Assembly (NCBI RefSeq): GCF_947488135.1
Contig: NZ_CANKYW010000002.1
Location: 372,001 to 436,000 of the forward strand
DNA: 64,000 nt
Direction: 5' to 3'
Source of the DNA: an uncultured Marivita sp.
Lineage (GTDB): Bacteria; Pseudomonadota; Alphaproteobacteria; Rhodobacterales; Rhodobacteraceae
The position numbers and the translations under genes were made by a program. The notes beneath the pieces are model-generated. The model was given only the letters and a program-made list of their open reading frames with translations, searched no databases and was not told where the DNA came from. Of this stretch, positions 34,617 to 62,074 are shown piece by piece (positions within the stretch are counted from its first letter, which is position 1; each line of letters opens with the position of its first letter).

Positions 34617-34837
34617 CTGCTTTACCTCATCCGCGCGCCTCTTGTCAGGGTCGGGCAGCGTCGTTGACGAAATGTTAAGCGCAAAGGACCAGCTTGTGTA
34701 GCCTGCGTGAATTCTGACCCAGTTTTTGCGTCATTCGTGCCTTTGCTGCCATCCGTCTTGCGGGTTGTAGGACCGACACGCTATTTTGACCAAAGCGGAA
34801 AGAGCGGTCGATGAATGAACCGCCGGGCGAGGTAGCG

Positions 34838-37470: not shown

Positions 37471-37727
37471 ACTCTGCACCTCAATATTTGGCGTCTTTTC
37501 GCGCCTGATTTCTCTTGAGCTTAAACGATAAAGTATCACTTGGGCAGGAAAATTCGCGTCGATTTGTAACAACGCTTCATCCCCCTGTGGCGCATTTGCC
37601 AATTCTGCCGAAACTGGATTTTGATGCCCAAACCCTGTAAACACCCCGAAAAACCGCATCGTGAACGACAAGAGCAATCGACAACGCGGATGATCCGCAA
37701 CGGTGCAGAAAATGGGCAGACCGGTTG

Positions 37728-44494: not shown

Positions 44495-45322
44495 ATGACA
44501 ACGTCCTATTTTGCCCCCGAGGGTGGCCACCCCGGCCAAGATCAGCTTCTGACGGATCGGGCGATGTTCACCGAGGCCTATGCGGTGATCCCGAAAGGCA
44601 CGATGCGGGATATCACGACAAGCTTTCTGCCCTTTTGGGACGAGACCCGCCTCTGGGTGATCGCGCGGCCGCTCAGCGGCTTTGCCGAGACTTTTTCTCA
44701 CTACATCATGGAGGTCGGTGCTGGCGGGGGATCCGGTCGCGCTGAAACGGACCCGGAGGCCGAAGGCGTGCTGTTCGTGGTCGAAGGCACGATGTGCCTG
44801 ACCGTCGGCGGCGAGACACACGAAATGCGCGCAGGCGGCTATGCGTATCTGCCGCCGCGATCCGGCTGGACCCTGCGCAACACCGGGTCCGAACCGGTGC
44901 GCTTTCACTGGCTGCGCAAGGCGTACCAGGCGGTAGACGGTCTGGATCATCCCGATGTGATCGTGACCAACGAAGCCGACGTCGCCCCGACGCCGATGCC
45001 GGGCACCGACGGAAAATGGGCGACGACGCGCTTTGTCGATCCCTCCGATCTGCGCCACGACATGCACGTAACCATCGTGACCTTCGAGCCGGGCGCGGTG
45101 ATCCCATTCCTGGAAACGCACGTGATGGAACACGGTCTCTACGTGCTTGAAGGGAAGGCGGTCTATCGGCTTAACCAGGATTGGGTCGAGGTCGAGGCCG
45201 GAGACTACATGTGGCTGCGCGCGTTCTGCCCACAGGCGTGTTATGCGGGTGGACCGGGCAAGTTTCGCTACCTTCTCTACAAGGATGTGAACCGCCACAT
45301 GCCATTGAAACTCGGTCGATGA
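44495..45322 (+). CDS. allE: (S)-ureidoglycine aminohydrolase
   Basis: A 275-residue bicupin enzyme that converts (S)-ureidoglycine to (S)-ureidoglycolate with release of ammonia, a step of purine/allantoin degradation. It begins MTTSYFAPEGGHPGQDQLLTD. The first cupin has GVLFVVEGTMCLTVGG; the second has the Mn-binding ETHVMEHGLYVLEGKAVYRL, and AGDYMWLRAFCPQACYAGG follows. Length is typical. It is the gene directly upstream of the bhcABCD cassette on the same strand, 188 bases away, and its downstream partner AllA is at 52678. Confidence 0.93.
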   Translation: MTTSYFAPEGGHPGQDQLLTDRAMFTEAYAVIPKGTMRDITTSFLPFWDETRLWVIARPLSGFAETFSHYIMEVGAGGGSGRAETDPEAEGVLFVVEGTMCLTVGGETHEMRAGGYAYLPPRSGWTLRNTGSEPVRFHWLRKAYQAVDGLDHPDVIVTNEADVAPTPMPGTDGKWATTRFVDPSDLRHDMHVTIVTFEPGAVIPFLETHVMEHGLYVLEGKAVYRLNQDWVEVEAGDYMWLRAFCPQACYAGGPGKFRYLLYKDVNRHMPLKLGR

Positions 45323-45350
45323 GAATCGCGGTTTTGGGTTCGATTCAGGT

Positions 45351-45452
45351 CTTGTGAAACACTTTCAAAAAACGCTTTCATCTTGTGAAAAATACAAGTC
45401 ACTGAAATTAAATGGATTAGTGGTATTCTCGTTTTTGAAAAATAATTTCGAA
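45351..45452 (+). promoter_or_regulatory. Candidate operator region upstream of bhcA
   Basis: This AT-rich stretch stands out from the high-GC surroundings. It holds TGAAA-CAC-TTTCA (45355-45367, a perfect 5-bp hyphenated palindrome), a repeat of CTTGTGAAA at 45351 and 45382 (31 bases apart, about three helical turns), and a longer imperfect palindrome TTGAAAAATAATTTCGAA (45435-45452). IclR-type regulators often bind GAAA/TTTC half-sites, and the known bhc regulator BhcR is an IclR member. Binding here is inference. Confidence 0.4.
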
Positions 45453-45510
45453 AAAATTGCGGAGACGGGAGGTCGTGGCGTAGATTGCCTGCAATTGGAG
45501 GAGAGACGCC

Positions 45511-46704
45511 ATGAGTTTCCAAAACCCCGTTTTCATCCCCGGGCCAACCAACATCCCGGAATCGCTGCGCAAAGCCTGTGATATGCCGACAATCGACCAC
45601 AGGTCGCCGTTGTTCGGTCAGATCCTGCACCCGGCCCGCAAGGCAGTTCAGCAGATTTTGAAAAGCACCAGTGCCGAAGTGTTCATCTTCCCGGCCTCCG
45701 GGACGGGTGGTTGGGAAACCGCGCTCACCAACACGTTGAGCCCCGGCGACACGGTGCTCGTCGCGCGCAACGGGATGTTCTCCCATCGCTGGATCGACAT
45801 GTGCGAACGCTTTGGCCTCGATGTAATCATCGTGGATGTGGCCTGGGGCAAGGGTATCCCAGCCGACCGGTTCGAAGAGATCCTGACCAAGGACAGCGCG
45901 CACCGGATCAAGGCGGTTCTGGCGACACATAACGAAACAGCCACCGGCGTTAAGTCCGATATCGGAGCCGTGCGCCGCGCGATGGACGCGGCACAGCACC
46001 CGGCGCTTTTGTTCGTGGACGGCGTGTCGTCGATCGCGTCGATGGATTTCCGGTTCGATGACTGGGGCGTGGATGTTGCCGTGACCGGCTCGCAGAAGGG
46101 CTTCATGCTGCCCGCCGGTCTGGCCATCGTCGGCTTCAGCCAGAAGGCGATGACGGCGACTGAAACCGCTGGATTGCACCGCACGTTCTTTGACGTGCAC
46201 GACATGATGAAGGGCTACGCGAAAAACGCCTATCCCTACACGCCCGCGGTCGGCCTGATGAACGGTCTGAACGAGGCATGCCGCATGTTGCAGGCCGAAG
46301 GGCTTGAGAATGTCTTTGCGCGTCACACCCGGATAGCCGGTGGCGTGCGCGCTGCGGTGGATGCCTGGGGGCTTGATCTCTGCGCCGAAACGCCGGACCT
46401 CTATTCCGACACGGTCAGCGCCATCCGGACGCCCGAGGGATTCAATGCGACGGATATCGTGACCCATGCCGCCAGCACCTATGGCGTCGCATTCGGTGTC
46501 GGTCTGGGCGATGTGGCCGGTAAGGTGTTCCGCATCGGGCATCTTGGCAGTCTGACGGATGTCATGGCCCTGTCCGGGATCGCGACCGCCGAGATGTGCA
46601 TGGTCGACCTTGGGCTCGATATCAAACTGGGTTCGGGTGTCGCAGCGGCGCAAGAGCACTATCGTCATGGATCGAAGATGGCAGTGAAGGTGGCAGCGGA
46701 ATGA
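45511..46704 (+). CDS. bhcA: Aspartate-glyoxylate aminotransferase of the beta-hydroxyaspartate cycle (BhcA)
   Basis: A 397-residue class V PLP aminotransferase. It begins NPVFIPGPTNIPESLR and carries the PLP lysine K196 in VTGSQKGFMLPAG, the aspartate partner in LLFVDGVSSIASMDF, and the FPASGTGGWE cofactor loop. In the BHA cycle it aminates glyoxylate to glycine using aspartate. On sequence alone it could be a serine-glyoxylate aminotransferase; the gene order bhcA-bhcB-bhcC-bhcD decides in favour of BhcA. The ribosome site GGAGGAGAG precedes the ATG, and its stop overlaps the bhcB start by 4 bases. Confidence 0.93.
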   Translation: MSFQNPVFIPGPTNIPESLRKACDMPTIDHRSPLFGQILHPARKAVQQILKSTSAEVFIFPASGTGGWETALTNTLSPGDTVLVARNGMFSHRWIDMCERFGLDVIIVDVAWGKGIPADRFEEILTKDSAHRIKAVLATHNETATGVKSDIGAVRRAMDAAQHPALLFVDGVSSIASMDFRFDDWGVDVAVTGSQKGFMLPAGLAIVGFSQKAMTATETAGLHRTFFDVHDMMKGYAKNAYPYTPAVGLMNGLNEACRMLQAEGLENVFARHTRIAGGVRAAVDAWGLDLCAETPDLYSDTVSAIRTPEGFNATDIVTHAASTYGVAFGVGLGDVAGKVFRIGHLGSLTDVMALSGIATAEMCMVDLGLDIKLGSGVAAAQEHYRHGSKMAVKVAAE

Positions 46705-47672
46705 AAGACATGGGCATGATCATCCCGACATATGAAGACATGCTGGCGGCGCATGAGCGGATCAAACCGCACATCAACCGCACGCCGGTCCTCCAGTCGG
46801 CGTATCTGAACGACCTGACCGGGGCAGAGCTGTTCTTCAAATGCGAGAACTTCCAGGAGCCGGGTGCCTTCAAGGTACGCGGCGGGTCGAACGCGGTCTT
46901 CGGACTCAGCGACGCGGATGCCGAGCGCGGTGTCTGCACTCACTCGTCGGGCAATCACGCTTTGTGTCTGTCCTACGCCGCAGGCCGCCGTGGTATCCCG
47001 TGCAACGTGGTCATGCCGCGCACCGCGCCGCAGGCCAAGAAAGACGCGGTCCGTCGTTACGGTGGCACGATCACCGAGTGCGAACCATCGACCTCATCGC
47101 GCGAGGCGGTGTTTGCCGAAGTGCAGGCCAAGACAGGTGGCGAATTCGTGCATCCCTATAACGATCCGCGCGTAATTGCGGGGCAAGGCACCTGTTCCAA
47201 GGAGTTCATGGAGCAGACCGACGGGCTCGACATGATGGTGGCCCCTATCGGCGGTGGCGGCATGATCTCGGGCACCTGCCTCACGCTGTCGACGCTGGCA
47301 CCAGAGGTCAAGATCATCGCGGCGGAACCTGAACAGGCCGACGACGCCTATCGCAGCTTCAAGGCGGGACATATCATTGCCGACGACGCGCCCGAAACGA
47401 TTGCCGATGGTCTCAAGGTGCCGCTCAAGGATCTGACGTGGCATTTCGTGTCGAACCACGTGTCCGACATCATGACCGCGTCCGAGCAGGAGATCATCGA
47501 CGCAATGAAGATCACCTGGAAGTACCTGCGCATTGTGATGGAGCCGTCCTGCGCGGTGCCGCTCGCGGTGATCCTCAAGAACAAGGAACGGTTCGCGGGC
47601 AAGCGAGTCGGCGTGATCGTGACGGGTGGCAATGTGGATTTGGATAAACTGCCGTGGATGATTGGTGCGTGA
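46701..47672 (+). CDS. bhcB: beta-Hydroxyaspartate dehydratase (BhcB)
   Basis: A 323-residue fold-type II PLP enzyme of the serine/threonine dehydratase family. It dehydrates beta-hydroxyaspartate to iminosuccinate. It starts MKDMGMIIPTYEDMLAAHER at 46701, overlapping the bhcA stop. PLP lysine K58 lies in FQEPGAFKVRGGSNA; the phosphate loop is APIGGGGMISG, and the SSGNHALCLSYAA motif is present. The position between bhcA and bhcC makes it the cycle dehydratase rather than catabolic threonine dehydratase or serine racemase. Confidence 0.93.
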   Translation: MKDMGMIIPTYEDMLAAHERIKPHINRTPVLQSAYLNDLTGAELFFKCENFQEPGAFKVRGGSNAVFGLSDADAERGVCTHSSGNHALCLSYAAGRRGIPCNVVMPRTAPQAKKDAVRRYGGTITECEPSTSSREAVFAEVQAKTGGEFVHPYNDPRVIAGQGTCSKEFMEQTDGLDMMVAPIGGGGMISGTCLTLSTLAPEVKIIAAEPEQADDAYRSFKAGHIIADDAPETIADGLKVPLKDLTWHFVSNHVSDIMTASEQEIIDAMKITWKYLRIVMEPSCAVPLAVILKNKERFAGKRVGVIVTGGNVDLDKLPWMIGA

Positions 47673-47706
47673 GATCACGCACCCTACGGGCTAAGGGAGA
47701 ACGACA

Positions 47707-48870
47707 ATGAAAGATATGACCGTATTCGACGATTACGAAGTGGGCTTCGACATTCCCGCCAAGCCGGGCATGTCCGAGGCGGAGGTGCAGACACCCTGCC
47801 TCGTGCTCGACCTCGACGCGCTGGAGCGGAACATCAAGAAGATGGGCGACTACGCCAAGGCGCACGGGATGCGCCACCGCGTGCACGGCAAGATGCACAA
47901 GTCGGTGGATGTGGCGCTATTGCAGGTCGAGCTGGGCGGCGCCTGCGGCGTTTGCTGTCAGAAGGTGTCCGAGGCCGAGGTCTTTGCCCGTGGCGGTATC
48001 AAGGATGTTCTGGTGTCCAACCAGGTGCGTGACCCTGCAAAGATCGACCGACTTGCGCGGATGCCCAAGCTGGGCGCGCGGACCATCTGTTGTGTCGACG
48101 ATCTGGCCAACGTGGCAGACCTGTCTGCGGCGGCGGTCAAGCATGGCACGCAGATCGAATGCCTCGTCGAGATCGACTGCGGCGCGGGGCGCTGTGGTGT
48201 GACGACGACGCCTGCCGTTGTCGAGATCGCCAAGGCGATCGACGCGGCAGAGGGTCTCAAGTTCGCTGGTATTCAAGCGTACCAGGGCGCGATGCAGCAC
48301 ATGGACAGCTATGACGAGCGCAAGGCAAAGATCGACATCGCTGTCGCCCAAGTGAAGGACGCCGTGGACACGCTCAAGACCGAAGGCATCGAGTGTGACA
48401 TCGTCGGCGGTGGCGGCACCGGGTCCTATTATTTCGAGTCGAACTCGGGCGTGTATAACGAGCTTCAGTGCGGATCCTACGCCTTCATGGATGCCGACTA
48501 CGGCCGTATCCTCGACAAGGATGGCAAGCGGATTGACCAGGGCGAATGGGAGAACGCGCTGTTCATCCTGACCAGCGTCATGAGCCACGCGAAGGCGGAC
48601 AAGGCGATCGTGGATGCGGGTCTGAAGGCGCAGTCGGTGGACAGCGGTCTGCCGGTGATCTTTGGCCGCGACGACGTGGAATACGTCAAATGCTCGGACG
48701 AGCATGGCGTCGTCATGGACCCGAAGGGCGTGTTGAAAGTCAACGACAAGCTGAAGCTGGTGCCGGGTCATTGCGATCCGACCTGTAACGTTCACGATTG
48801 GTATGTTGGTGTTCGGAATGGTGTCGTGGAAACCGTTTGGCCGGTATCGGCGCGCGGACGCGCCTATTGA
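47707..48870 (+). CDS. bhcC: beta-Hydroxyaspartate aldolase (BhcC)
   Basis: A 387-residue fold-type III PLP enzyme of the D-threonine aldolase/DSD1 family. It condenses glycine with glyoxylate to beta-hydroxyaspartate. The PLP lysine is K62 in the VHGKMHKSVDVALLQ segment; further motifs are TPCLVLDLDALERNI, DCGAGRCGV, the GGGGTGSYYFES phosphate-binding region and a C-terminal metal site VPGHCDPTCNVHDW. It lies 34 bases after bhcB. Confidence 0.94.
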   Translation: MKDMTVFDDYEVGFDIPAKPGMSEAEVQTPCLVLDLDALERNIKKMGDYAKAHGMRHRVHGKMHKSVDVALLQVELGGACGVCCQKVSEAEVFARGGIKDVLVSNQVRDPAKIDRLARMPKLGARTICCVDDLANVADLSAAAVKHGTQIECLVEIDCGAGRCGVTTTPAVVEIAKAIDAAEGLKFAGIQAYQGAMQHMDSYDERKAKIDIAVAQVKDAVDTLKTEGIECDIVGGGGTGSYYFESNSGVYNELQCGSYAFMDADYGRILDKDGKRIDQGEWENALFILTSVMSHAKADKAIVDAGLKAQSVDSGLPVIFGRDDVEYVKCSDEHGVVMDPKGVLKVNDKLKLVPGHCDPTCNVHDWYVGVRNGVVETVWPVSARGRAY

Positions 48871-48878
48871 TCTGGTTT

Positions 48879-48924
48879 CGGATCGGGAAAGCCCGATCCG
48901 ACTCTTTGGGGGCCAGCCCCCAAA
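48879..48924 (+). repeat. Two back-to-back hairpins between bhcC and bhcD
   Basis: Two strong inverted repeats follow the bhcC stop: CGGATCGGG / CCCGATCCG with AAAG loop (48879-48900), then TTTGGGGG / CCCCCAAA with CCAG loop (48905-48924). They are followed by CCCCGACATATTTGGAAAAAGAAG, a tail familiar from Rhodobacterales intergenic repeats. Neither is followed by a T run. They may act as an mRNA stabiliser or partial terminator that sets bhcD expression below bhcABC. Confidence 0.6.
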
Positions 48925-49004
48925 CCCCCGACATATTTGGAAAAAGAAGAAGACAGGACGGTGCGCAGTGAGGACTGTCGCACCGTTTCTGCGAGGGAGA
49001 GACC

Positions 49005-49970
49005 ATGTATATCGTTCCAGAAGCCATGATTGCCGACCTGGTGTCACGCGAGGCCTCGTTCGAGGCGGTGGAGCAGGTGTTCGCCGCGATGGCGGCGAAG
49101 GATGCCTACAATTTTCCGGTGGTGCGCGAAGCCATCGGGCATGAGGATGCGCTCTACGGCTTTAAGGGCGGGTTTGACCGGGTTGGGGGATCGCTTGGGC
49201 TCAAGGCGGGCGGGTACTGGCCGCACAACATGGAAAAGCGCGAGCTGATCAATCACCAATCGACGGTGTTCCTGTTTGATCCCGATACAGGGCGCGTGCG
49301 GGCCATGGTCGGGGGCAACCTGCTGACAGCGTTGCGCACCGCGGCGGCGTCTTCTGTGTCGATCAAGCACCTCGCGCGGGACGATGCCAAGGTCATGGGC
49401 ATGGTGGGGGCCGGACATCAGGCCACTTTCCAGTTGCGCGCCGCGTTGGAACAACGGTCGTTCGATAAGGTGATCGGGTGGAACTACCACCCCGAGATGT
49501 TGCCGAATATCGAGAAGGTCGCGGAAGAGGCCGGCGTGCCATTCGAGGCAGTGGACCTGCCGGGGATGCAAGAGGCGGATATGATCATCTCGATCACATC
49601 GGCGTTTTCGCCGTCCTTGATGGCGGATCACGTGAGCCCCGGCACACATCTGGCCTGCATGGGGACCGACACCAAGGGCAAGCAAGAGGTCGAAGCGGCG
49701 CTGTTGGCACGCGCCACGGTGTTCACCGACGAGGTGGCGCAGTCGGTCAGTATCGGCGAGGCGCAGCACGCGGTCGGGTCCGGCCTGATCGCCGAGGATG
49801 ACGTGCACGAGATCGGTGCCGTGATCAATGGCACCCATCCCGGGCGCACTTCGGACGACGAGATCACGCTGTTCGATGGGACAGGCGTGGGACTTCAGGA
49901 CCTGGCGGTGGCGTCAAAGGTCGTGGAGCTGGCGATTGAACGCGGTGTCGCGATCGAAGTGGAGTTCTGA
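49005..49970 (+). CDS. bhcD: Iminosuccinate reductase (BhcD)
   Basis: A 321-residue member of the ornithine cyclodeaminase/mu-crystallin family. It reduces iminosuccinate to L-aspartate with NAD(P)H, closing the beta-hydroxyaspartate cycle. It begins MYIVPEAMIADLVSREASF. It shows KAGGYWPHNMEKRELINHQ for substrate binding, the Rossmann loop GMVGAGHQATFQLRAAL, and the late THLACMGTDTKGKQEV block. It is 134 bases after bhcC, separated by the hairpin repeats; ornithine cyclodeaminase activity is unlikely in this context. Confidence 0.93.
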   Translation: MYIVPEAMIADLVSREASFEAVEQVFAAMAAKDAYNFPVVREAIGHEDALYGFKGGFDRVGGSLGLKAGGYWPHNMEKRELINHQSTVFLFDPDTGRVRAMVGGNLLTALRTAAASSVSIKHLARDDAKVMGMVGAGHQATFQLRAALEQRSFDKVIGWNYHPEMLPNIEKVAEEAGVPFEAVDLPGMQEADMIISITSAFSPSLMADHVSPGTHLACMGTDTKGKQEVEAALLARATVFTDEVAQSVSIGEAQHAVGSGLIAEDDVHEIGAVINGTHPGRTSDDEITLFDGTGVGLQDLAVASKVVELAIERGVAIEVEF

Positions 49971-49978
49971 CGGTCGCG

Positions 49979-51031
49979 CTAGCTTGGGAACCAGTGCCGC
50001 GTGCGATTGGCGAACGCCACGAGAGACAACATCACGGGAACTTCGACCAGAACACCCACCACAGTGGCCAGTGCCGCGCCCGAGTTGAGGCCGAAAAGGC
50101 TGATAGCAACCGCTACGGCGAGTTCGAAGAAATTCGATGTGCCGATGAGGGCGCAGGGCGCTGCGACATTGAAGGGTATGCGCCACAGGCGTGCCGCGAT
50201 GTAGGCGACGAAAAAGATGCCATAGGACTGGATCAACAGCGGAACCGCGATCAGCGCGATGACCAGCGGACGGTCGAGGATCACCTCGCCCTGAAACCCG
50301 AAAAGCAGGACCACTGTCGTCAGAAGACCGAAGATCGAATAGGGCTGCACGCGGGTTTTGAACCTGTCCACGGCGGGTTCACCGCCCTTTGCGACGAGGT
50401 TCCGGCGCGTGACGTATCCGGCCAGTAGGGGCAGAACGACATAAAGACCGACGGACAGGATCAGAGTGTCCCACGGGACTGCGATGTCAGTCACGCCCAA
50501 AAGAAACGCGACGATGGGCGCGAAAGCGAAAATCATCACGACATCGTTCACACTGACCTGCACCAGCGTGTAGTTCGGATCTCCGCGGGTCAGGTGCGAC
50601 CAGACGAACACCATCGCGGTGCAGGGCGCGGCGCCAAGGAGGATGACACCGGCAAGGTAGGCTTGCGCATCGTCAGGCGGGATCAGGTCGGCAAAGACCA
50701 CCTCGAAGAAGAGAACGCCGAGAGCCGCCATGGTGAATGGCTTGATCAGCCAGTTGACGACGAGCGTCACGACGAGGCCCTTGGGTTTTTCCCCCACGTT
50801 TTTCAGTGACCCGAAATCGACGCCAACCATCATCGGGTAGACCATGGCCCAGATGAGGATCGCCACCGGCAGGTTGACCTTGGCAATCTCCAGCGCGGCA
50901 AGGAAGGCGAAGAGACCGGGAAAGATATTCCCCAGCACAAGCCCTGCGCCGATGGCCAGCGCGACCCAGAGCGAGAGCCAGCGTTCGAACGTGCCAAGCC
51001 CGGCCTTGGCGGTATCGACGGTATCGGTCAT
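49979..51031 (-). CDS. ACR3-family carrier (arsenite-efflux type)
   Basis: A 350-residue inner-membrane transporter with ten predicted helices of the BASS/ACR3 fold. Diagnostic motifs are [21 protein letters not shown], the [15 protein letters not shown] segment, the essential-cysteine motif [20 protein letters not shown], and [19 protein letters not shown]. These match arsenite exporters. No arsR, arsC or arsH is nearby, and it sits convergent to bhcD within a purine locus. Either it is a stray arsenic gene or an ACR3-like carrier recruited for another anion. Confidence 0.85.
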
Positions 51032-51124
51032 GTCAGATGTCCTGTTGCGTTGCGCATCGAGTTTCGGCGTATAGCCCCGTATAGCCGGTATCGAAACAGG
51101 ATGTTTTGCGATTGCTCAATTGAG

Positions 51125-51152
51125 AAACCCCCCGGCGCCATGACCGGGGGGT
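51125..51152 (-). terminator. Terminator of the uracil/xanthine permease gene
   Basis: A 10-bp perfect stem AACCCCCCGG / CCGGGGGGTT with an 8-base loop lies 25 bases after the permease stop on the minus strand, followed by TCTCAATTG. It isolates the ACR3-type gene, whose promoter lies in 51032-51124. Confidence 0.75.
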
Positions 51153-51176
51153 TCATTCTTGCGGATGATTGCCGGA

Positions 51177-52613
51177 TCAGACGTTCGCGCCGCTGGCCTC
51201 TTCCTTGCCCTTGAGCCCGGTTCCGTGGCCGGACATACCGCCCGAGACTTCCTCGGTGCTTTCGCCTGACAGCTCCTGTGGAAGCACCAAGTTCAGAACA
51301 ATGGCAATGAGTGCGGCGGGCAGGATGCCGCTTGTCGCCAAGACCTTGAGTGTTTGCGGAAGGTATTGCAGCGCGTTGGGCTCGAGTTGCAGACCAAAGC
51401 CAAGCGACAGGGCGATCGCGAAGATCACCATGTTGCGACGGTTCCAGTTCACGTCGGACAGCATCGAGATGCCCGCCGCGACGACCATGCCGAACATGAC
51501 GATCACGCCGCCGCCCAGCACTTCGATCGGGACCGACGAGATCACCGCGCCGACTTTGGGGATCAGGCCGCAGAGGATCAGGAACAGCGCCCCGATGGTC
51601 ACCACGCCGCGGCTCATCACGCCGGTCATGGCAATAAGGCCGACATTCTGGCTGAACGACGTGTTGGGCAATGCGCCGAACAATCCCGAGATCGCGGTGC
51701 CGAGACCGTCGGCATAGGTTGCGCCCTGGATTTCGGTGTCGGTGGCTTCGCGTCCTGCGCCGCCTTTGGTGATCCCGCTCACGTCGCCCACGGTTTCAAC
51801 CGCGGACACGAAGGACATGAGGCAGAAGCCGACGATGGCGGCGACCGAGAATTCCAGCCCGAAATGCAGCGGGTTGGGCAGGGCGAAAGGTGCCGCGCGA
51901 CCCACGTTGCCGAGGTTCACCTCTCCCAACAGAAAGGCGACCGCGTAACCGACCAGCAGACCGACGAGAACCGCAGAGACCGACAGCATCCCACGGGCAA
52001 AGAATTTGAGGCCCAACGTGACAAGGATCACCGTGCCCGCCATCGTCCAGTTCAGAAGCGAGCCGTATTCCGGCTGATCCATCGCAGGCACGCCGCCCGC
52101 AGCGTATTGGATGCCCACCTTGACCAGCGCGAGGCCGATCATCGTCACCACAAGGCCCGTGACCAGCGGCGGCAGGGCAAAGCGCAGCTTGCCGATGAAG
52201 AGGCCAAGGAACGCGTGGAACAAACCGCCGACAAGGATGCCGCCCATCAGGACCGCGATGGCATCGACGCCTTTGCCTGCAACAAGCGGAATCATGATCG
52301 GGATGAAGGCAAAGGATGTGCCCTGCACGATTGGCAGGCGCGCGCCTACCGGGCCGACGCCGATGGTCTGGAACAGCGTCGCGATGCCCGCAAAGAACAT
52401 CGACATCTGGATCATGTAGATCATCTGCGGAAAGTCGGGGCTGTTCGAGCCAAAGCCGAAGCCGGCCGCGCCGCAGACGATGATGGCGGGTGTGACGTTG
52501 GATACGAACATCGCCAGAACGTGCTGGATGCCCAGTGGGATCGCCGTGGCGATGGGGGGTGTGTAGTTCGGATCGCGGAGTTGCTCCGGCGTGCCGATGG
52601 ATGTGGCTGACAT
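51177..52613 (-). CDS. Uracil-xanthine (NCS2) permease
   Basis: A 478-residue inner-membrane nucleobase symporter with about 12-14 helices. NCS2 signature elements are GIQHVLAMFVSNVTPAI in the first helix, the long conserved helix region with FGALPNTSFSQNVGLIAMTGV, and the SRGVVTIGALFLILCGLIPK stretch. It likely imports xanthine or urate as feed for the neighbouring catabolic genes. It lies 64 bases downstream of nothing else; allA follows upstream in the same direction (52678), so one transcript puuE-uraD, allA, permease is plausible. Confidence 0.93.
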   Translation of the reverse strand: MSATSIGTPEQLRDPNYTPPIATAIPLGIQHVLAMFVSNVTPAIIVCGAAGFGFGSNSPDFPQMIYMIQMSMFFAGIATLFQTIGVGPVGARLPIVQGTSFAFIPIMIPLVAGKGVDAIAVLMGGILVGGLFHAFLGLFIGKLRFALPPLVTGLVVTMIGLALVKVGIQYAAGGVPAMDQPEYGSLLNWTMAGTVILVTLGLKFFARGMLSVSAVLVGLLVGYAVAFLLGEVNLGNVGRAAPFALPNPLHFGLEFSVAAIVGFCLMSFVSAVETVGDVSGITKGGAGREATDTEIQGATYADGLGTAISGLFGALPNTSFSQNVGLIAMTGVMSRGVVTIGALFLILCGLIPKVGAVISSVPIEVLGGGVIVMFGMVVAAGISMLSDVNWNRRNMVIFAIALSLGFGLQLEPNALQYLPQTLKVLATSGILPAALIAIVLNLVLPQELSGESTEEVSGGMSGHGTGLKGKEEASGANV

Positions 52614-52677
52614 GGTTCTCTCTCCCTCGTAACCATTTGTTTTGCCCGGTGCCCCTCCTCCTGGACTGCCGGGATGT

Positions 52678-53166
52678 TCAGGTCTCGATCACCTCGTAAG
52701 GATGGTCGAACCAGTGCTCTTGCAGGTTGTCACCTGCGCCGATGCGGTCGATGACCGCGAAAAGTCCGGTGCCGGACAGCGGGGTCAGGACCCCGTGCCA
52801 CGTGTTGCGGTGAAAGTTGATCGCCTGTCCCGGAGCGGTGCGGAACGCGAGCGGCGTGCCGGGGGCATTGCCCGTGTCCGGGGCGACGATCACCAGAAAT
52901 CCATCATCGCTCATCGGGACGAAGCACTGGCTGCCCTCGGGGTGGCGTTCCATCATGTCGAGTGTCAGGGGCATGGTGCGCAGCTCTGCCTTGAACAGAC
53001 TGATCCCGGCGCGGCCATCGCTGAAGTCGAGCGTTGCGCGGTCGTGGTAGCGGCCGCATTTGCCCTGGTTGATGATCTTGTCGGGATCGCCCGCGCAGTC
53101 GAGCAGATCGCCGAAGGGCGCGAAGGCATCCCTGCTGATCGGCTGGATTGGGACGCGGCGGGTCAT
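52678..53166 (-). CDS. allA: Ureidoglycolate lyase
   Basis: A 162-residue cupin-like enzyme that splits (S)-ureidoglycolate into glyoxylate and urea, the last step of the ureide pathway. It begins MTRRVPIQPISRDAFAPFGDLLD, the normal AllA N-terminus, with MMERHPEGSQCFVPM and the metal-site FHRNTWHGVLTPL. Its start overlaps the puuE-uraD stop by 4 bases. The glyoxylate it makes is the direct input of the bhcABCD products encoded 3-7 kb away. Confidence 0.94.
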   Translation of the reverse strand: MTRRVPIQPISRDAFAPFGDLLDCAGDPDKIINQGKCGRYHDRATLDFSDGRAGISLFKAELRTMPLTLDMMERHPEGSQCFVPMSDDGFLVIVAPDTGNAPGTPLAFRTAPGQAINFHRNTWHGVLTPLSGTGLFAVIDRIGAGDNLQEHWFDHPYEVIET

Positions 53167-54575
53167 TGGCCCAGCTTCTCGATCAGGCGCAGTTCGGCAA
53201 TGCGTTCGACCTGACGGCAGGCCTCGGCGAACTCGGTGTCGCGGTCATTGCCGATGCGGCGGTGGAAGGCATCAAGGATGCTGGCCTTTGAGTTGTCCTT
53301 CACCGCGATGATAAAGGGAAAGCCGTGGCGCGCGACGTAATCGGCATTCAGCTTCTGGAAGGTCTCACGTTCGGCGTCGGTGAGCATGTCGAGCCCTGCA
53401 CCGGCTTGTTCCGCCGTGGACTCGGCAGTCAGGCGGCCGGCAGCGGCGAGTTTTCCGGCGAGGTCTGGGTGAGCGTTGAGCACGCCAAGACGCTCCTCGT
53501 CCGACGCCGTGCGGAAGGCGCGGCAGAGCAGGTTATGCACGCCGTGCGCGGTGTCGTGCGTTGGCCCGGCCTCGTATTCGTAGGCGCGTTCGGCGATCCA
53601 GGGGGAGTGTTCGAAGATGCCGCCGAAGGCTGCGACGAAGTCCTCGCGCGACATCTCGGTGGGACGTTGCGCGCTGGGTGCGGGGTGCTCGCGCGCCCAG
53701 TGCTGTGCGATCTGCTGGCGCGTGGCGAACCAGACGCGCTCGTGACTCGCCATATAATCCAGCACACGCTTCAACGCGGCGGCACGGCCCGGGCGGCCGA
53801 TGATGCGGCAGTGCAAGCCGATGGAGAGCATCTTGGGAGTACCGTCGACGCCTTCGGCATAGAGCGTGTCGAAGCTGTCCTTCAGATAGCTCTCGAATTG
53901 GTCGCCGGTGGTGAATCCCGCCTGAATACCGAACCGCATATCGTTGCAGTCCATCGTGTAGGGCATGATGAGTTGCTGTGTATCACCGAACGTCATCCAA
54001 TAGGGCAAGTCGTCGGCATAGCTGTCGGCGACGTAGTCGAACCCGCCGTGTTCCGCGACCAACCTTACGGTGTTGTTGGAACAGCGCCCAGTGTACCAGC
54101 CTTTCGGCGGTTCCCCGACAACCTCGGTATGAAGCCGGATCGCTTCGGCGATCTGGGCGCGTTCCTCATCCTCGGGCATGTCCTTGTGCTCGACCCACTT
54201 TAGCCCGTGGGAGGCGATCTCCCATCCCGCATCCTTCATCGCCGCGACCTGTTCCGGCGCGCGGGCCAGCGCGGTGGCGACACCGTAGATGGTGATGGGA
54301 ATGTCCTTCATCATCCGGTGCAGGCGCCAGAATCCGGCCCGCGCCCCATATTCGTAGATCGATTCCATGTTCCAGTGCCGCTGTCCCGGCCAGGGCTGTG
54401 CGCCGGTGATCTCGGACAGGAACGCCTCCGAGGCGGCATCGCCGTGCAGGATGTTGTTCTCGCCGCCCTCTTCGTAGTTGAGCACGATCTGCACGGCGAT
54501 CTTGGCGCCACCCGGCCAATTGGCTTTGGGCGGGGTCGGGCCGTATCCGGTCATGTCACGGGGATAGCGTTGCAC
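53163..54575 (-). CDS. puuE: Fusion: PuuE-type allantoinase and OHCU decarboxylase (UraD)
   Basis: A 470-residue bifunctional protein. Residues 1-310 are a polysaccharide-deacetylase-fold allantoinase (PuuE): KIAVQIVLNYEEGGENN, EIASHGLKWVEH, PKGWYTGRCSNNT and GLHCRIIGRPGR. Residues about 315-470 are the UraD domain, with GVHNLLCRAF, LNAHPDLAGKLA and FPFIIAVKDNSKASILDAFHRR. UraD decarboxylates 2-oxo-4-hydroxy-4-carboxy-5-ureidoimidazoline to S-allantoin, which PuuE hydrolyses to allantoate, so successive steps are fused, and in reverse order along the chain. It is divergent from uraH. Confidence 0.95.
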   Translation of the reverse strand: MQRYPRDMTGYGPTPPKANWPGGAKIAVQIVLNYEEGGENNILHGDAASEAFLSEITGAQPWPGQRHWNMESIYEYGARAGFWRLHRMMKDIPITIYGVATALARAPEQVAAMKDAGWEIASHGLKWVEHKDMPEDEERAQIAEAIRLHTEVVGEPPKGWYTGRCSNNTVRLVAEHGGFDYVADSYADDLPYWMTFGDTQQLIMPYTMDCNDMRFGIQAGFTTGDQFESYLKDSFDTLYAEGVDGTPKMLSIGLHCRIIGRPGRAAALKRVLDYMASHERVWFATRQQIAQHWAREHPAPSAQRPTEMSREDFVAAFGGIFEHSPWIAERAYEYEAGPTHDTAHGVHNLLCRAFRTASDEERLGVLNAHPDLAGKLAAAGRLTAESTAEQAGAGLDMLTDAERETFQKLNADYVARHGFPFIIAVKDNSKASILDAFHRRIGNDRDTEFAEACRQVERIAELRLIEKLGQ

Positions 54576-54724
54576 GTGCGGGTCCTCCTGAGTGGTTGTC
54601 TTTGTAATCCGAATAATCGAAATCGTTTTTCAAGAAATCCCGAAAGGTGTCTCAAACGGGTTCCATTTGCGGTTTTACACCCGATCGCATCATAAAGGTG
54701 CACAGCGACATGAAGGAGAGCACG
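54576..54724. promoter_or_regulatory. Divergent puuE-uraD / uraH intergenic region
   Basis: A 149-base gap between divergent starts holds both promoters. It is AT-richer than its surroundings (TCCGAATAATCGAAATCG around 54607-54624). A GAAGGAGAG ribosome site precedes uraH. No certain operator is seen; the LysR-type regulator at 56177 is the obvious candidate to bind here. Confidence 0.4.
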
Positions 54725-55081
54725 ATGTCAGGCTATTTGACGACCCATGTTCTGGACACGGCACGGGGCTGCCCGGCTTCCGGTTTGAAGATCGCGCTGT
54801 ACCGAGTGTCCGGGAATTCCCACAGCAAGATCGCCGAGACCGTCACGAATGACGACGGTCGCACCGACAGCCCGATCCTGCCGGCGGCAGATTTCAAAAC
54901 CGGCACCTATGAGCTGGTGTTTTTCGCGGGAGACTACCTGCGCGCGTCTGGGCAGGCGGGGGACGATCCGCTGTTTCTTGACGAAGTGCCGATCCGGTTC
55001 GGCATGTCCGACGCCGTGGCGCATTACCATGTGCCGTTGTTGCTGTCGCCTTACGGGTATTCGACCTATCGAGGGAGCTGA
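54725..55081 (+). CDS. uraH: 5-Hydroxyisourate hydrolase
   Basis: A 118-residue transthyretin-like enzyme that opens the ring of 5-hydroxyisourate, the product of urate oxidation, to OHCU. It starts [18 protein letters not shown], with the conserved His in the HVLD motif, the central GRTDSPIL and the C-terminal diagnostic tetrapeptide YRGS, preceded by [16 protein letters not shown]. The start at 54725 has an AAGGAGAG ribosome site. Its product feeds UraD, encoded divergently. Confidence 0.97.
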
Positions 55082-55189
55082 CACGTTTGGCATAGACCCA
55101 CACGAAACGGTCGCAGCAGGACTTTTTCGTTGAGTTTCGGGAAACCTTCGCCTTTCCTGACCAGACCCCCATTGCAGGAGATGTCGAAT

Positions 55190-56080
55190 ATGACCGAACG
55201 CAAGCTCTATCTTGGGCCTCTGACCGACAACCGGCGCTGGGATCTGGTGAACATCCGCCCCGATGATGTGTTTGTGGTCACACCTCCGAAATGCGGGACC
55301 ACCTGGATGCAGACCATTGTGGCGCTGCTGTTCTCGGGTGATCCTGACGTCGAAACGGAACTGTCGGTCAAGATGCCCTGGGTCGACGTTCGCATCCGTG
55401 AGATGTCCGAAGTGGCTGCCCGGCTCGACGCGATGACCCACCGGCGCAGCATGAAAAGCCACACACCGATGGATGGCCTCCCTCTGCATCATCAGGCGCA
55501 ATATATCTGCGTGTTCCGCCATCCGCTTGATGCGCATTTCTCCTATCGCAAACATGTGCGGAACATTCCGATGTCATGGTTCGACTTGTGGTATCCTCAA
55601 GACGATACCGACGGCACCACATTTCGCCGGTTTCTCGACGGCGGAGCCGAGGGTTTCGACACGGACGCCATGCCGCTCGCGCATATCCTGCGACACTACA
55701 AAGCGGCCATGGCACGTGCTGACATGTCCAATGTGACCTTGTTTCATTATGCGGACATGAAACGCGATCTGGCAGGTACCTTCGCGAAGGTGGCCGCCCT
55801 CTTGGATATTTCGCATTCGGACGACGTAATGAAGCACCTCGTTCAGGCCGCCACCTTTGACAACATGAAAGCCAATGCCGAGCGCTATGCCCCCTCTGGC
55901 GGCAAGGGGTTCATGAAATCGGACTCCGACTTTTTCCACAGCGGCACCAACAAGAAATGGCGCGGCAAGCTGACGGATGCGGAACTGGCGGCGTATGACG
56001 CGGTGATGGACACAGAGTTGACGCCGGAGGAGCGGGATTGGTTGGAGAATGGGTCAGGCGGAAAGCATGCGGTCAGATGA
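55190..56080 (+). CDS. PAPS-dependent sulfotransferase
   Basis: A 296-residue Sulfotransfer_1-type enzyme, cytoplasmic, that moves sulfate from PAPS to a hydroxyl or amine. The start at 55190 (MTERKLYLGPLTDN) is chosen because AGGAG lies 8 bases upstream; the ATG at 55181 is too close to it. The 5'-phosphosulfate loop is VTPPKCGTTWMQTI; the 3'-phosphate site is YICVFRHPLDAHFSYRKH; near the C-terminus is the KGFMKSDSDFFHSGTNKKWRGKL region. It follows uraH by 108 bases. Its link to purines is unexplained. Confidence 0.9.
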   Translation: MTERKLYLGPLTDNRRWDLVNIRPDDVFVVTPPKCGTTWMQTIVALLFSGDPDVETELSVKMPWVDVRIREMSEVAARLDAMTHRRSMKSHTPMDGLPLHHQAQYICVFRHPLDAHFSYRKHVRNIPMSWFDLWYPQDDTDGTTFRRFLDGGAEGFDTDAMPLAHILRHYKAAMARADMSNVTLFHYADMKRDLAGTFAKVAALLDISHSDDVMKHLVQAATFDNMKANAERYAPSGGKGFMKSDSDFFHSGTNKKWRGKLTDAELAAYDAVMDTELTPEERDWLENGSGGKHAVR

Positions 56081-56176
56081 TAGTCTACGCTCGAACGCCG
56101 AGTCTCCTTCGTTCAGCTACTCGTCATGCCCGCAGCTATTCTGTTGTACCCGGCATAAAAAAGGTGTTGCTGACCG

Positions 56177-57085
56177 TCAGGCGTTCTTGATCACTGTCCC
56201 GATCCGTCCGATCACGAAATCCATGAAGAGCCGCGATTTTGGATCCTGCCTGCGCCGGTGGGTGAAGAGGCAGGCCATCTGGATTGGCACCGGGGGCGTC
56301 TGCTTCGCGACCTCGATCAGGCGCCCCGTGCGCAGGTGGTCGGCGACTTCGAAGACCGGTTTCATCGCGATGCCATGCCCGCCGAGGGCCCAGTCGGTCA
56401 GGACATCCCCATCGTCGGATTCATAGCGGCCCGTGACCTTGAACCGCTTGGGGCCATCCGGCGTTTGCAGCCGCCATTGGAATTCGGTGGCGCCGGGGAA
56501 GCGCAGGTTGAGGCATTCGTGGTTCTGTGAGATCAGCTCGTCGCCCGAATTCGGCATGCCATGCGTTCTGATATATTCGGGTGCGGCGCACAGCACGCGG
56601 TCGACATCGGCGATCTTGCGGATGCGCAGGGTGCTGTCTTCCGGCTCTCCCAGAAAGAAGGCCAGATCAAGACCCTCGGTGGTGAGGTCAACCTTACGAT
56701 CCGTCAGGCGCAATCGTACGGAGACCTCGGGGTAGTGCTTCAGAAACGCGGGCACCTGCGGCGCGATGAGGCGACGACCGACACCCAAAGGCGCGGCGAC
56801 GTAAAGCGCACCGCGGGGGTTCTCGGTGATGTTGACCACCTGCGCTTCGGCGACTTCGACGGCTTCCAGCACCTCGACCGCACCGGCGTAGAACAACCGC
56901 CCCTGTTCGGTGGGCGTCAGGTTGCGGGTGGTGCGCTGGAAGAGGCGGACCGACAGATGCTCTTCAAGCTGCGCGATCCGGGTCGAGGTGACGGCGGGCG
57001 AAATCCGCAGATCGCGACCGGCGGCGGACATGCTGCCCAATTCGTAGACACGCACGAAGGTTCTGATGTTGTCGAGATAGGACAT
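56177..57085 (-). CDS. LysR-family transcriptional regulator
   Basis: A 302-residue regulator with an N-terminal winged helix-turn-helix (VYELGSMSAAGRDLRISPAVTSTRIAQLEEHL) and a C-terminal effector-binding domain (about 90-300). It is divergent from puuD with a 101-base gap, so it is the likely regulator of urate oxidation and perhaps of the wider purine locus. The inducer is not readable; a purine or ureide is plausible. Confidence 0.92.
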   Translation of the reverse strand: MSYLDNIRTFVRVYELGSMSAAGRDLRISPAVTSTRIAQLEEHLSVRLFQRTTRNLTPTEQGRLFYAGAVEVLEAVEVAEAQVVNITENPRGALYVAAPLGVGRRLIAPQVPAFLKHYPEVSVRLRLTDRKVDLTTEGLDLAFFLGEPEDSTLRIRKIADVDRVLCAAPEYIRTHGMPNSGDELISQNHECLNLRFPGATEFQWRLQTPDGPKRFKVTGRYESDDGDVLTDWALGGHGIAMKPVFEVADHLRTGRLIEVAKQTPPVPIQMACLFTHRRRQDPKSRLFMDFVIGRIGTVIKNA

Positions 57086-57186
57086 TCTTCGGAGATTCTT
57101 GATACAGCTTGGAGTTTGATTGGAATAGCAGAATAATCGCTCTGTCGATAGTCTGGTCCAAAGCCGTCAAACCGGAGCCTTTCGCC
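57086..57186. promoter_or_regulatory. Divergent lysR / puuD intergenic region
   Basis: A 101-base gap between divergent starts. A dyad GATT (57118-57121) and AATC (57135-57138) with 13 bases between, containing TGGAATAGCAGAA, resembles a loose LysR-type site. Evidence is weak. Confidence 0.35.
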
Positions 57187-58413
57187 ATGTATGATTTCGC
57201 CGTTCTCTGGGACTGGATCGCCTTCGCGGTCCGCTGGTTGCATGTGATCACCGCGATGGCGTGGATCGGGGCGTCGTTCTATTTCATCGCGCTCGATCTG
57301 ATGCTGAAGCCTGCGCCCGACATGCCCAAGGGCGCCTCGGGAGAGGAGTGGGAAGTGCATGGCGGCGGGTTTTATCACACGACGAAGTATCTTGTGGCCC
57401 CGGACCGGTTGCCCGAACATCTGACCTGGCACAAATGGCAGAGCTATACGACTTGGCTCTCTGGGGCGGCGCTGCTCATGATCGTCTATTGGGTGGGGGG
57501 AGAGCTGTTCCTGCTCGACCCGACCAAGGCGGAACTCGCGCTCTGGCAGGGGATCGTGATCTCGGCACTGTCGCTGACGATCGGTTGGCTGCTTTACGAT
57601 TTCCTCTGCAAGTCACCGCTGGGCGAACAGCCGACGGTCTTGATGCTTTTGCTCTTCGTGATCCTTGTGGTGATGGCCTGGGGCTATGATCAGGTCTTCA
57701 CCGGGCGCGCGGCGTTGCTGCATCTGGGAGCGTTTACGGCGACGATCATGACGGCCAACGTGTTCTTCATCATCATGCCGAACCAGCGTATCGTGGTGGA
57801 TGACCTCAAGAACGGGCGCACGCCGGACCCGAAATACGGCAAGATCGCCAAGCTCCGCTCGACCCACAACAACTACCTGACGCTGCCGGTGATCTTCCTG
57901 ATGCTGTCGAACCATTACCCTCTGGCCTTCGGGACGGAGTTTGCCTGGATCATCGCGTCGCTGGTGTTCCTGATGGGGGTGACGATCCGGCACTACTTCA
58001 ACTCGATGCATGCAGGCAAAGGTCAGCCCAACTGGACCTGGGCCGTGACGGTGGTGATCTTCATCGCGATCGCGTGGTTGTCGACACTGGGCGGGGCCGA
58101 GACCTATGACGAGGCGGCGGAACGGCCCTTGACCGATTTCGAGATGCAGTTTGCTTCGGCAGACGGCTTTGAGGACGCCTACAACGTGGTGCAGGGCAAT
58201 TGTTCCATGTGCCACGCGCGCGCGCCGCTGTGGGACGGGATCCGCTGGGCGCCGAAGGGCGTGTATCTGGAGACCGAGGGCGACGTCGCACGCCACGCGG
58301 AACAGATTTACCTGCAAGCCGGTCGTAGCCACGCGATGCCGCCGCCCAATGCGATCCAGATGGATGATGATGCACGGGCGCAGATCGTGGCGTGGTATCG
58401 CGCGGTGGAGTGA
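57187..58413 (+). CDS. puuD: Membrane-bound urate hydroxylase PuuD with cytochrome c domain
   Basis: A 408-residue integral membrane protein that oxidises urate to 5-hydroxyisourate and passes electrons to the respiratory chain. The start MYDFAVLWDWIAFAVRWLHV is chosen as the conserved PuuD N-terminus. About eight membrane helices carry WLHVITAMAWIGASFYFI, with further histidines; the C-terminal domain has a single haem-c motif GNCSMCHARAPLWDG. No soluble uricase is in the window, so PuuD is the entry enzyme here. It is divergent from the LysR gene. Confidence 0.94.
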   Translation: MYDFAVLWDWIAFAVRWLHVITAMAWIGASFYFIALDLMLKPAPDMPKGASGEEWEVHGGGFYHTTKYLVAPDRLPEHLTWHKWQSYTTWLSGAALLMIVYWVGGELFLLDPTKAELALWQGIVISALSLTIGWLLYDFLCKSPLGEQPTVLMLLLFVILVVMAWGYDQVFTGRAALLHLGAFTATIMTANVFFIIMPNQRIVVDDLKNGRTPDPKYGKIAKLRSTHNNYLTLPVIFLMLSNHYPLAFGTEFAWIIASLVFLMGVTIRHYFNSMHAGKGQPNWTWAVTVVIFIAIAWLSTLGGAETYDEAAERPLTDFEMQFASADGFEDAYNVVQGNCSMCHARAPLWDGIRWAPKGVYLETEGDVARHAEQIYLQAGRSHAMPPPNAIQMDDDARAQIVAWYRAVE

Positions 58414-59545: not shown

Positions 59546-60691
59546 TTACAACACTGCCTCGAAAAGCGCCCGCGTGTTGGCTTCGGTCATCTTGACCGGG
59601 TTGCCGCCCGTTGACGGGTCGTTGAGCGCATCGCGGACCAGAACGTCGAGGTTCGCGTCCTTGACGCCAAGATCGGTGAGCGTCTTCGGGATCGCGAAGC
59701 TGTCGTTGAACTGATCGACGAAAGCGCAGAACCCGTCAAATCCGCCATCGACCCCCAGATACCCGGCTGCGCGGTCGAACCGATCGCGGATGGCGTCGGC
59801 GTTGAACTTGAGCACGGCGGGCATGCAAATGGCGTTGGTCGTGCCGTGATGCGTGTGGTGATGCGCGCCAATCGGATGAGACAGCGCATGGATCGCGCCG
59901 AGGCCTTTCTGGAAGGCGGTTGCGCCCATGGCGGCGGCGCTCATCATGTTGGCTCGGGCGTCGATGTCTGACCCGTCCTTGTAAGCGCGGGGGAGGTTGT
60001 CGATCACCAGTTTCATGCCCTCGAGCGCGATGCCCTGGCTCATCGGGTGGTAATGCGGGCTGGAATAGGCTTCGACGCAATGGGCGAAGGCATCGAGCCC
60101 GGTGCCGGCAGTGATGAATTTCGGCATACCCACGGTCAGCTCTGGATCGCAGATCACCACGGCGGGGAGCATCTTAGGGTGGAAGATGATCTTCTTTTCG
60201 TGGGTTTCCGAATTGGTGATGACGCTGGCGCGGCCCACTTCGGAACCGGTGCCTGCGGTCGTGGGCACGGCGACGATGGGATGGATGCCAGCGGGGTCCG
60301 CACGGGTCCACCAATCGCCGATATCCTCGAAATCCCAGAGCGGGCGCGCCTGCCCGGCCATAAAGGCGAGCGTCTTTGCAAGGTCGAGACCGGAGCCGCC
60401 GCCAAAGGCCACGACGCCGTCGAACCCGCCCTCGCGGTAGACGCGGAGACCCTCTTCGACATTCTTTTCGTTCGGGTTCGGATCGACCTCCGAAAACATC
60501 GCGCGACCGAGGCCCGCCTGCTCGATCAGATTCAGGGTCTTGGTGGTGATCTCCATATCCGCAAGACCGCGATCCGTGACCAGAAGCGGCTTGGTGATGT
60601 TCGCGGCGATGCACGCCTCGGCGATTTCCGAGATGCGGCCTGCGCCGAAGCGGATCGAGGTGGGGTAGGACCAGTTTCCGGTGAGGGACAT
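59546..60691 (-). CDS. Iron-containing alcohol dehydrogenase
   Basis: A 381-residue group III NAD(P)-dependent alcohol dehydrogenase. The cofactor loop is VVAFGGGSGLDLAKTLAF; PTTAGTGSEVGRASVI follows; the metal site is made by DAFAHCVEAYSSP and by AIHALSHPIGAHHHTHHG, with the late HHTHHG histidine cluster. It lies 4 bases after the aldehyde dehydrogenase stop on the same strand and is the last gene of the ligase-ALDH-ADH operon. Substrate unknown, probably a gamma-glutamylated or free amino alcohol. Confidence 0.93.
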   Translation of the reverse strand: MSLTGNWSYPTSIRFGAGRISEIAEACIAANITKPLLVTDRGLADMEITTKTLNLIEQAGLGRAMFSEVDPNPNEKNVEEGLRVYREGGFDGVVAFGGGSGLDLAKTLAFMAGQARPLWDFEDIGDWWTRADPAGIHPIVAVPTTAGTGSEVGRASVITNSETHEKKIIFHPKMLPAVVICDPELTVGMPKFITAGTGLDAFAHCVEAYSSPHYHPMSQGIALEGMKLVIDNLPRAYKDGSDIDARANMMSAAAMGATAFQKGLGAIHALSHPIGAHHHTHHGTTNAICMPAVLKFNADAIRDRFDRAAGYLGVDGGFDGFCAFVDQFNDSFAIPKTLTDLGVKDANLDVLVRDALNDPSTGGNPVKMTEANTRALFEAVL

Positions 60692-60695
60692 CTGA

Positions 60696-62072: not shown

Positions 62073-62074
62073 GG

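Follow-up and report, generated by a model that had tools for sequence, protein, structure and literature searches.

The beta-hydroxyaspartate cycle, encoded by the bhc genes, has so far been presented as a route for algal glycolate. In the allantoin route of Escherichia coli, AllC, AllE and AllA act in turn and are followed by Gcl (glyoxylate carboligase). Here, we describe a locus in which both subjects meet: in a 64-kb stretch of DNA from an uncultured Marivita sp. (hereafter the window; G000:C2:372001-436000, G000 being the host genome), genes for a purine/ureide route ending in glyoxylate lie next to bhcABCD. An earlier note, made from the letters of this DNA, had proposed a dedicated and co-regulated purine version of the cycle. 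We consider a purine-carbon route likely, in a less exclusive form: we read the stretch as a purine-to-oxaloacetate locus of Rhodobacterales whose bhc operon also serves glyoxylate of other origin, e.g. from glycolate, and assign this reading a probability of roughly 0.7.

Regarding the E. coli route, the window shares with it AllE, AllA and glyoxylate as end product. In contrast to E. coli, the host genome holds neither AllC nor Gcl over the respective cut-offs, and glyoxylate would be handled by the bhc cycle. As in bhcRABCD of Paracoccus denitrificans, the window enzymes pass the equivalog models (BhcA to BhcD each above the NCBIfam cut-off), the four genes are adjacent on one strand, the start of bhcB overlaps the stop of bhcA by 4 bp as in an operon, and the operators before bhcA are kept. 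Unlike in P. denitrificans, bhcR lies on another contig and the neighbours are ureide genes. In that species BhcR is an activator of bhc that responds to glyoxylate; the passages covered here concern glycolate use and mention purines and allantoin as no more than a general source of glyoxylate (PMC11323563). The purine half resembles the PuuD-type catabolism of the marine Alphaproteobacteria SAR11 and SAR116, with PuuD, UraH, UraD, PuuE, ureidoglycolate lyase, a permease, and glyoxylate as the carbon product. For SAR11, carbon use of purines and allantoin was already inferred and allantoicase is listed, in the parts of the source consulted (PMC11698098); the window differs in having AllE in the place of allantoicase. 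The word 'Hydroxyaspartate' occurs 0 times in the main text of PMC11698098, and no description of a bhc/ureide neighbourhood was found in the literature searched, which consisted of listings and passages and did not extend to the founding 2019 paper on the cycle.

Gene content and proposed route

Gene identities were assigned by NCBIfam profile matches, quoted as bits/curated cut-off, and by Pfam for puuD, the LysR regulator and a sulfotransferase-domain gene (Table 1). In this way, the purine/ureide genes and bhcABCD named in the earlier note were all recovered in place, and allE was found where it had been put: it immediately precedes bhcA in the same orientation, across a gap of 188 bp. The PuuD-type gene set leading from urate to glyoxylate (PuuD, UraH, UraD, PuuE, AllA) is complete at the locus. 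PuuD is without an NCBIfam match at E 0.001, and its translation holds a CxxCH motif in the C-terminal part. The nearest solved structure to the allE product is 1sq4, a 'Glyoxylate-induced Protein', and BhcC has a solved relative in 6qkb (702 bits, 384 residues covered). The records holding the closest BhcC relatives, at 98% identity, bear the name Marivita.

With these identities, the following route can be proposed. Urate would enter via the permease, or would be formed from xanthine by a xanthine dehydrogenase whose gene lies elsewhere. PuuD, UraH and UraD would then lead to allantoin and PuuE to allantoate. AllE, probably acting on both allantoate and ureidoglycine, would give ureidoglycolate, from which AllA would release urea and glyoxylate. 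Next, BhcABCD would turn two glyoxylate into oxaloacetate with no carbon lost. Glyoxylate would also be sensed by BhcR, which would act at the operators before bhcA. We infer that these reactions take place in the Marivita strain and would carry purine carbon into biomass.

Regarding the ends of this route, xanthine dehydrogenase had been reported as missing from the window. It does lie outside it, yet it is present in the genome, away from the locus (XdhB, 1218.2/849.5, G000:C1:536080-538470). XdhB was over its cut-off in 12 of the 12 genomes searched, and in G228 and G089 it lies near the cluster. Glyoxylate carboligase was over its cut-off in none of 29 genomes, the best host match reaching 338.5 bits against 711.2.

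Table 1. Features of the purine/bhc locus, with positions in the window; evidence is given as bits/cut-off where a profile was used.
Feature	Position	Strand	Evidence or remark
allE, cupin (S)-ureidoglycine aminohydrolase	44495..45322	+	NCBIfam NF008376 530.2/338
IclR-type palindrome TTTCATCTTGTGAAA, inferred BhcR operator	45376..45390	.	strict form, allE-bhcA gap
near-palindrome TGAAAAATAATTTCG, second inferred BhcR operator	45436..45450	.	one half-site base off, allE-bhcA gap
bhcA, L-aspartate:glyoxylate aminotransferase	45511..46704	+	NF045640 745.9/650
bhcB, beta-hydroxyaspartate dehydratase	46701..47672	+	NF045641 587.7/550
bhcC, 3-hydroxy-D-aspartate aldolase	47707..48870	+	NF045642 764.0/690
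bhcD, iminosuccinate reductase	49005..49970	+	NF045643 593.2/500
ACR3/SBF-type transporter	49979..51031	-	TIGR00832 411.8/282.8
NCS2 purine (xanthine/urate) permease	51177..52613	-	TIGR03173 426/414.15
allA, ureidoglycolate lyase (to glyoxylate and urea)	52678..53166	-	NF002952 268.1/260
puuE-uraD fusion, allantoinase and OHCU decarboxylase	53163..54575	-	TIGR03212 512/424.6, TIGR03164 207.8/96.25
uraH, 5-hydroxyisourate hydrolase	54728..55081	+	TIGR02962 132.6/87.45
sulfotransferase-domain gene	between uraH and LysR regulator		Pfam
LysR regulator, adjoins puuD	56177..57085	-	Pfam LysR_substrate and HTH_1
puuD, membrane urate oxidase	57187..58413	+	Pfam Urate_ox_N 445.1/26.9, residues 6-298

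Recurrence of the ureide/bhc neighbourhood

The neighbourhood was compared across a family sample of 248 genomes, one per genus, in which the places of matches were listed for the best matches only. BhcC was over its cut-off in 105 of these genomes, AllE in 221 and PuuE in 224. Among the 66 genera with BhcC over its cut-off and a listed allE place, allE and bhcC were no more than 25 kb apart in 31, with 39 of the 105 BhcC genera left uncounted as they have no listed allE place; about 1.4% would be expected under random placing. With two reduced clusters (see below) set aside, the count becomes 29/64. In 23 of these 29 linked genera allE stands about 4 kb before bhcC, i.e. in the order allE, bhcR (opposite strand), bhcA, bhcB, bhcC. 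For puuE, the corresponding figure is 18/60 genera, and for either allE or puuE 37/89. A second view was given by named BhcC loci, the best 80 of 593 relatives: one or more of allE, allA and puuE occur in 33 of them, and the number rises to 36 once uraH or puuD is also counted, in a set that leans to near relatives (eight are Marivita or Marivita-like) and in which several loci end at a contig edge.

The 101 rows of a BhcC tree comprised 47 linked, 36 unlinked, 7 reduced and 11 unscored ones. In this quick tree, which has many open forks and two duplicate pairs, the distinction of linked-or-reduced versus unlinked took 16 changes. The tree shows that the neighbourhood was gained or lost several times and that the same gene order is seen in distant branches. 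Gene orders also vary, some loci carrying the block in reversed orientation or at the opposite flank.

Named plasmids were surveyed in 8 of 118 records with BhcC, a non-random pick from listings. On plasmids of Ruegeria sp. THAF33 and Leisingera methylohalidivorans, the whole route including xdhA and xdhB lies in one block (allE, bhcRABCD, permease, allA, puuE, uraH, LysR, puuD, second LysR, xdhA, xdhB). In the case of Pseudosulfitobacter pseudonitzschiae, xdhBC, permease, guaD and allE adjoin bhcRABCD; in that of strain SC52, bhc is flanked by allE, uraH, puuD, permease, allA and puuE. Near bhc on a plasmid of Paracoccus sp. SMMA_5_TC are genes for a permease and an 8-oxoguanine deaminase, along with uraH and puuD; outside the order, bhc on a plasmid of Methylobacterium radiotolerans is accompanied by genes for an 8-oxoguanine deaminase, a permease and a molybdopterin enzyme. 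The pairing of a glyoxylate-ending ureide route with a complete beta-hydroxyaspartate cycle, as seen in the earlier note, therefore recurs across the family and on named plasmids. The neighbourhood is confirmed as real, is not unique to this strain and is more general than that note could know.

Operators and the sources of glyoxylate

No bhcR was found in the window locus or in the eight closest loci; among the latter, L012 and L013 are uninformative, as they start within the bhc genes or immediately ahead of them. The host BhcR is encoded at C3:221219-222019 (NF045644, 405.9/350; 60% identical to the BhcR of L066). The strict operator form was defined as TGAAA-N5-TTTCA or TTTCA-N5-TGAAA, a palindrome which we take to resemble an IclR box and to which BhcR would bind. 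It precedes bhcA in 70 of 87 loci, with a shuffled mean of 0.1, and is equally common in linked (34/44) and unlinked (30/35) loci. With a loose pattern set, one further match was detected in the window, between puuE and uraH at 54618; 0.28 matches would be expected overall, and the site is not kept exactly in four relatives (L009, L014, L015, L016). As the sole clue to direct co-control in the Marivita strain, this match may be taken as a hint. A site common to allE and other ureide genes was also considered: the inverted repeat ATCAAG-N14-CTTGAT precedes 6 of 41 allE genes, shows no recurrence in the other ureide sets and was dropped.

Several observations weigh against a purine-carbon route. 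The strict operator was found upstream of none of 41 allE, 45 puuE, 45 uraH, 31 puuD, 28 permease and 22 lysR genes, and therefore the two halves probably do not share BhcR-type control. In 35 of the 66 genera with both places listed, allE and bhcC lie apart, and ureide neighbours are absent from many bhc clusters. On plasmids, bhcRABCD of Sinorhizobium americanum stands beside glcF and two FAD-linked oxidase genes, and that of Aminobacter aminovorans has neither purine nor glycolate oxidase neighbours. Lastly, a GlcD-like gene occurs in 64 of 69 chosen genomes including the host (427-461 bits, all below the 567.9 cut-off), and glycolate may be the main source of glyoxylate. In the host, this gene lies at C2:504697 (450.7 bits), 85 kb from bhcC, and the genome has one BhcC match. 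With a single BhcC match, a GlcD-like gene, bhcR on another contig and strict operators before bhcA and before none of the six other gene sets, the dedicated and co-regulated version of the cycle is not borne out. As strict operators were found before bhcA only and the Paracoccus BhcR responds to glyoxylate, we read the coupling as substrate-driven: more likely, it works through glyoxylate itself, so that any glyoxylate source would turn the cycle on.

The same observations could be explained if the cycle served glycolate only, with the ureide genes as inherited neighbours or as passengers of a mobile block, and purines used for nitrogen alone. Such an explanation would fit the GlcD-like genes, the ureide genes without strict operator, the plasmid location of some clusters and the published role in glycolate use (PMC11323563, passages covered). 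It fits less well with the identity of the recurrent neighbour, which is the purine/ureide set: a GlcD gene no more than 25 kb from bhcC was seen in 1 of the 60 genomes that have both a GlcD place and BhcC above its cut-off, versus 27 of 55 for allE in the GlcD-compared genomes with a listed allE place, a set in which linked genomes were chosen in excess, so that 27/55 is not a prevalence. The several gene orders also speak for repeated assembly or kept selection, and as a whole we regard an exclusive glycolate role as unlikely. Returning to the purine-to-oxaloacetate reading, its significance lies in the number of genera: if many of them pair the cycle with purine breakdown, purines would be a carbon source with no carbon loss at the glyoxylate step and with urea freed. 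The recurrence suggests that, in many bacteria of the family, purines can supply carbon for growth in addition to nitrogen.

The allantoate step

The earlier note had described the allantoate-hydrolysing step as missing from the window. This stands as far as AllC is concerned, no match being over the AllC cut-off in the host genome; the step itself is probably not missing, because AllE passes NF040771, the model for a bifunctional allantoicase/(S)-ureidoglycine aminohydrolase (502.7/350). AllE proteins from other loci passed the same cut-off in 9 of 9 cases, and three plasmid records (THAF33, L. methylohalidivorans, P. pseudonitzschiae) carry the bifunctional name on AllE. No experimental basis of that name was found in the literature searched. 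Judged from these profile matches, AllE probably has a predicted second activity and would also cleave allantoate.

The distribution of other allantoate enzymes was then considered. No canonical allantoicase was found in the host genome. In the family sample it is present in 10 of 248 genomes, 7 of the 27 without AllE over its cut-off versus 3 of the 221 with it (Fisher p 8e-6, genomes treated as unrelated; G125, among the three, is fragmentary). AllC was over its cut-off in none of 31 genomes and in 1 of 14 control genomes; its model, TIGR03176, is narrow, and lesser matches were therefore inspected. Three genomes (G228, G049, G244) hold the ureide/bhc cluster and no allantoicase, and their only AllC-type match is 77-78% identical to an M20 enzyme of the host pyrimidine cluster, which is found beside dihydropyrimidinase, PreA and a RutR-like regulator. 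AllE is therefore the best candidate in these three genomes. More generally, the allantoate step thereby gains a named candidate in a family whose sampled members are mostly without allantoicase and AllC. The M20 protein at G000:C2:76136 was tried as AllC, as it passes an 'allantoate amidohydrolase' subfamily model (692/452); its neighbours are dihydropyrimidinase and PreA, and we take it for a beta-ureidopropionase.

A look for an allantoate amidohydrolase elsewhere in the genome had also been advised. None was over the AllC cut-off, and one M20 protein (G000:C1:139604-140755) matched related models just or clearly below their cut-offs (504.3/508 for NF009529 and 338.7/399 for NF006771, both allantoate amidohydrolase-like). 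A gene 71% identical to it, together with a second fragment, lies about 10 kb from allE in G148. It is possible that this M20 amidohydrolase acts on allantoate in the host. That it carries the step instead of AllE appears rather doubtful, given the three cluster-bearing genomes with only a pyrimidine-like match, the 0/31 for AllC and the skewed distribution of allantoicase. The M20 gene lies near a formate dehydrogenase gene.

Reduced allE-bhcC clusters

In seven genera (G210, G146, G025, G097, G211, G205, G072; loci L089-L094, L099), a BhcC-type gene occurs with allE, and bhcA, bhcB and bhcD were not found in the fetched stretch, the genome-wide search being for BhcB only. BhcB was over its cut-off in 0/7 of these genomes (best matches 218-245 bits versus 550; G146 is 83% complete). 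The three complete-cluster control genomes were all positive, and the second-best host match, 239 bits, is at the level of the reduced genomes. In six of the seven, allE immediately precedes the BhcC-type gene in the same orientation; in G205, the two are separated by allA, and allE has the opposite orientation. Likewise, six of the seven pairs lie in a ureide cluster, and G210 holds allE and bhcC alone.

Two of the seven reduced BhcC are over the BhcC cut-off and the rest below it. All seven keep the GHCDPT motif and a lysine, presumably the pyridoxal-phosphate lysine. In a tree rooted by four distant paralogs, a quick one carrying a long-branch warning, 33 complete-cycle BhcC fall in a clade of 35 (SH-aLRT 97) together with one reduced and one other sequence; the other six reduced BhcC lie outside, among stand-alone genes, for which no common neighbour partner was found. 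The seventh reduced sequence, that of G211, groups as sister to a complete cluster of identical gene order and appears to stem from a later loss. Tentatively, and as one of the less probable options, BhcC could in Rhodobacterales belong to ureide breakdown in its own right, the AllE-aldolase pair being an older, simpler glyoxylate sink that preceded the full cycle. The aldolase would then join glyoxylate and glycine to 3-hydroxyaspartate, other enzymes would finish, and the full cycle beside the purine genes would have been built from the pair. The role of BhcC in genomes without BhcB is thereby raised as a question. Regarding the surroundings of BhcC-type genes, a GAPDH-like gene adjoins them in L089 (11215-14547, then malic enzyme) and L139 (6923-7927), and L106 has frames of similar length after the bhc cluster.

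The presence of an aldolase alone in the reduced clusters, together with the glyoxylate response of the P. denitrificans BhcR (PMC11323563, passages covered), could also mean that bhcABCD protects the cell from glyoxylate freed during use of purine nitrogen, any net carbon gain being a side effect. The complete cycle, however, means net assimilation with its own reductase, and a sink would not need four genes, which makes this explanation quite improbable. The purine-to-oxaloacetate reading remains the preferred one for complete clusters.

Neighbouring genes

Three genes of the locus were not mentioned in the earlier note, i.e. the ACR3/SBF-type transporter gene, the sulfotransferase-domain gene and the LysR regulator gene. 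The position of LysR beside puuD is kept in many linked loci. The ACR3-type transporter, placed between bhcD and the permease, is also found in some Marivita loci (L012, L014, L015) and not in L009, L011, L013 and L016. Possibly, its substrate is an organic anion instead of arsenite.

Further out, two glycosyltransferase family 2/92 proteins (window 34811-35806 and 37725-39968) are unrelated to the purine/bhc locus. After puuD, the window holds genes of the glutamine-synthetase family, an aldehyde dehydrogenase and an iron alcohol dehydrogenase (59546-63427, minus strand). The same three-gene set, 61-67% identical, lies directly upstream of bhcRABCD on the Aminobacter plasmid pAA03, and homologues of the synthetase (64-72%) are found near bhc in L020, L026, L034, L035 and L047. 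Perhaps these genes form another route for an amine or alcohol into the cycle, via gamma-glutamyl intermediates.

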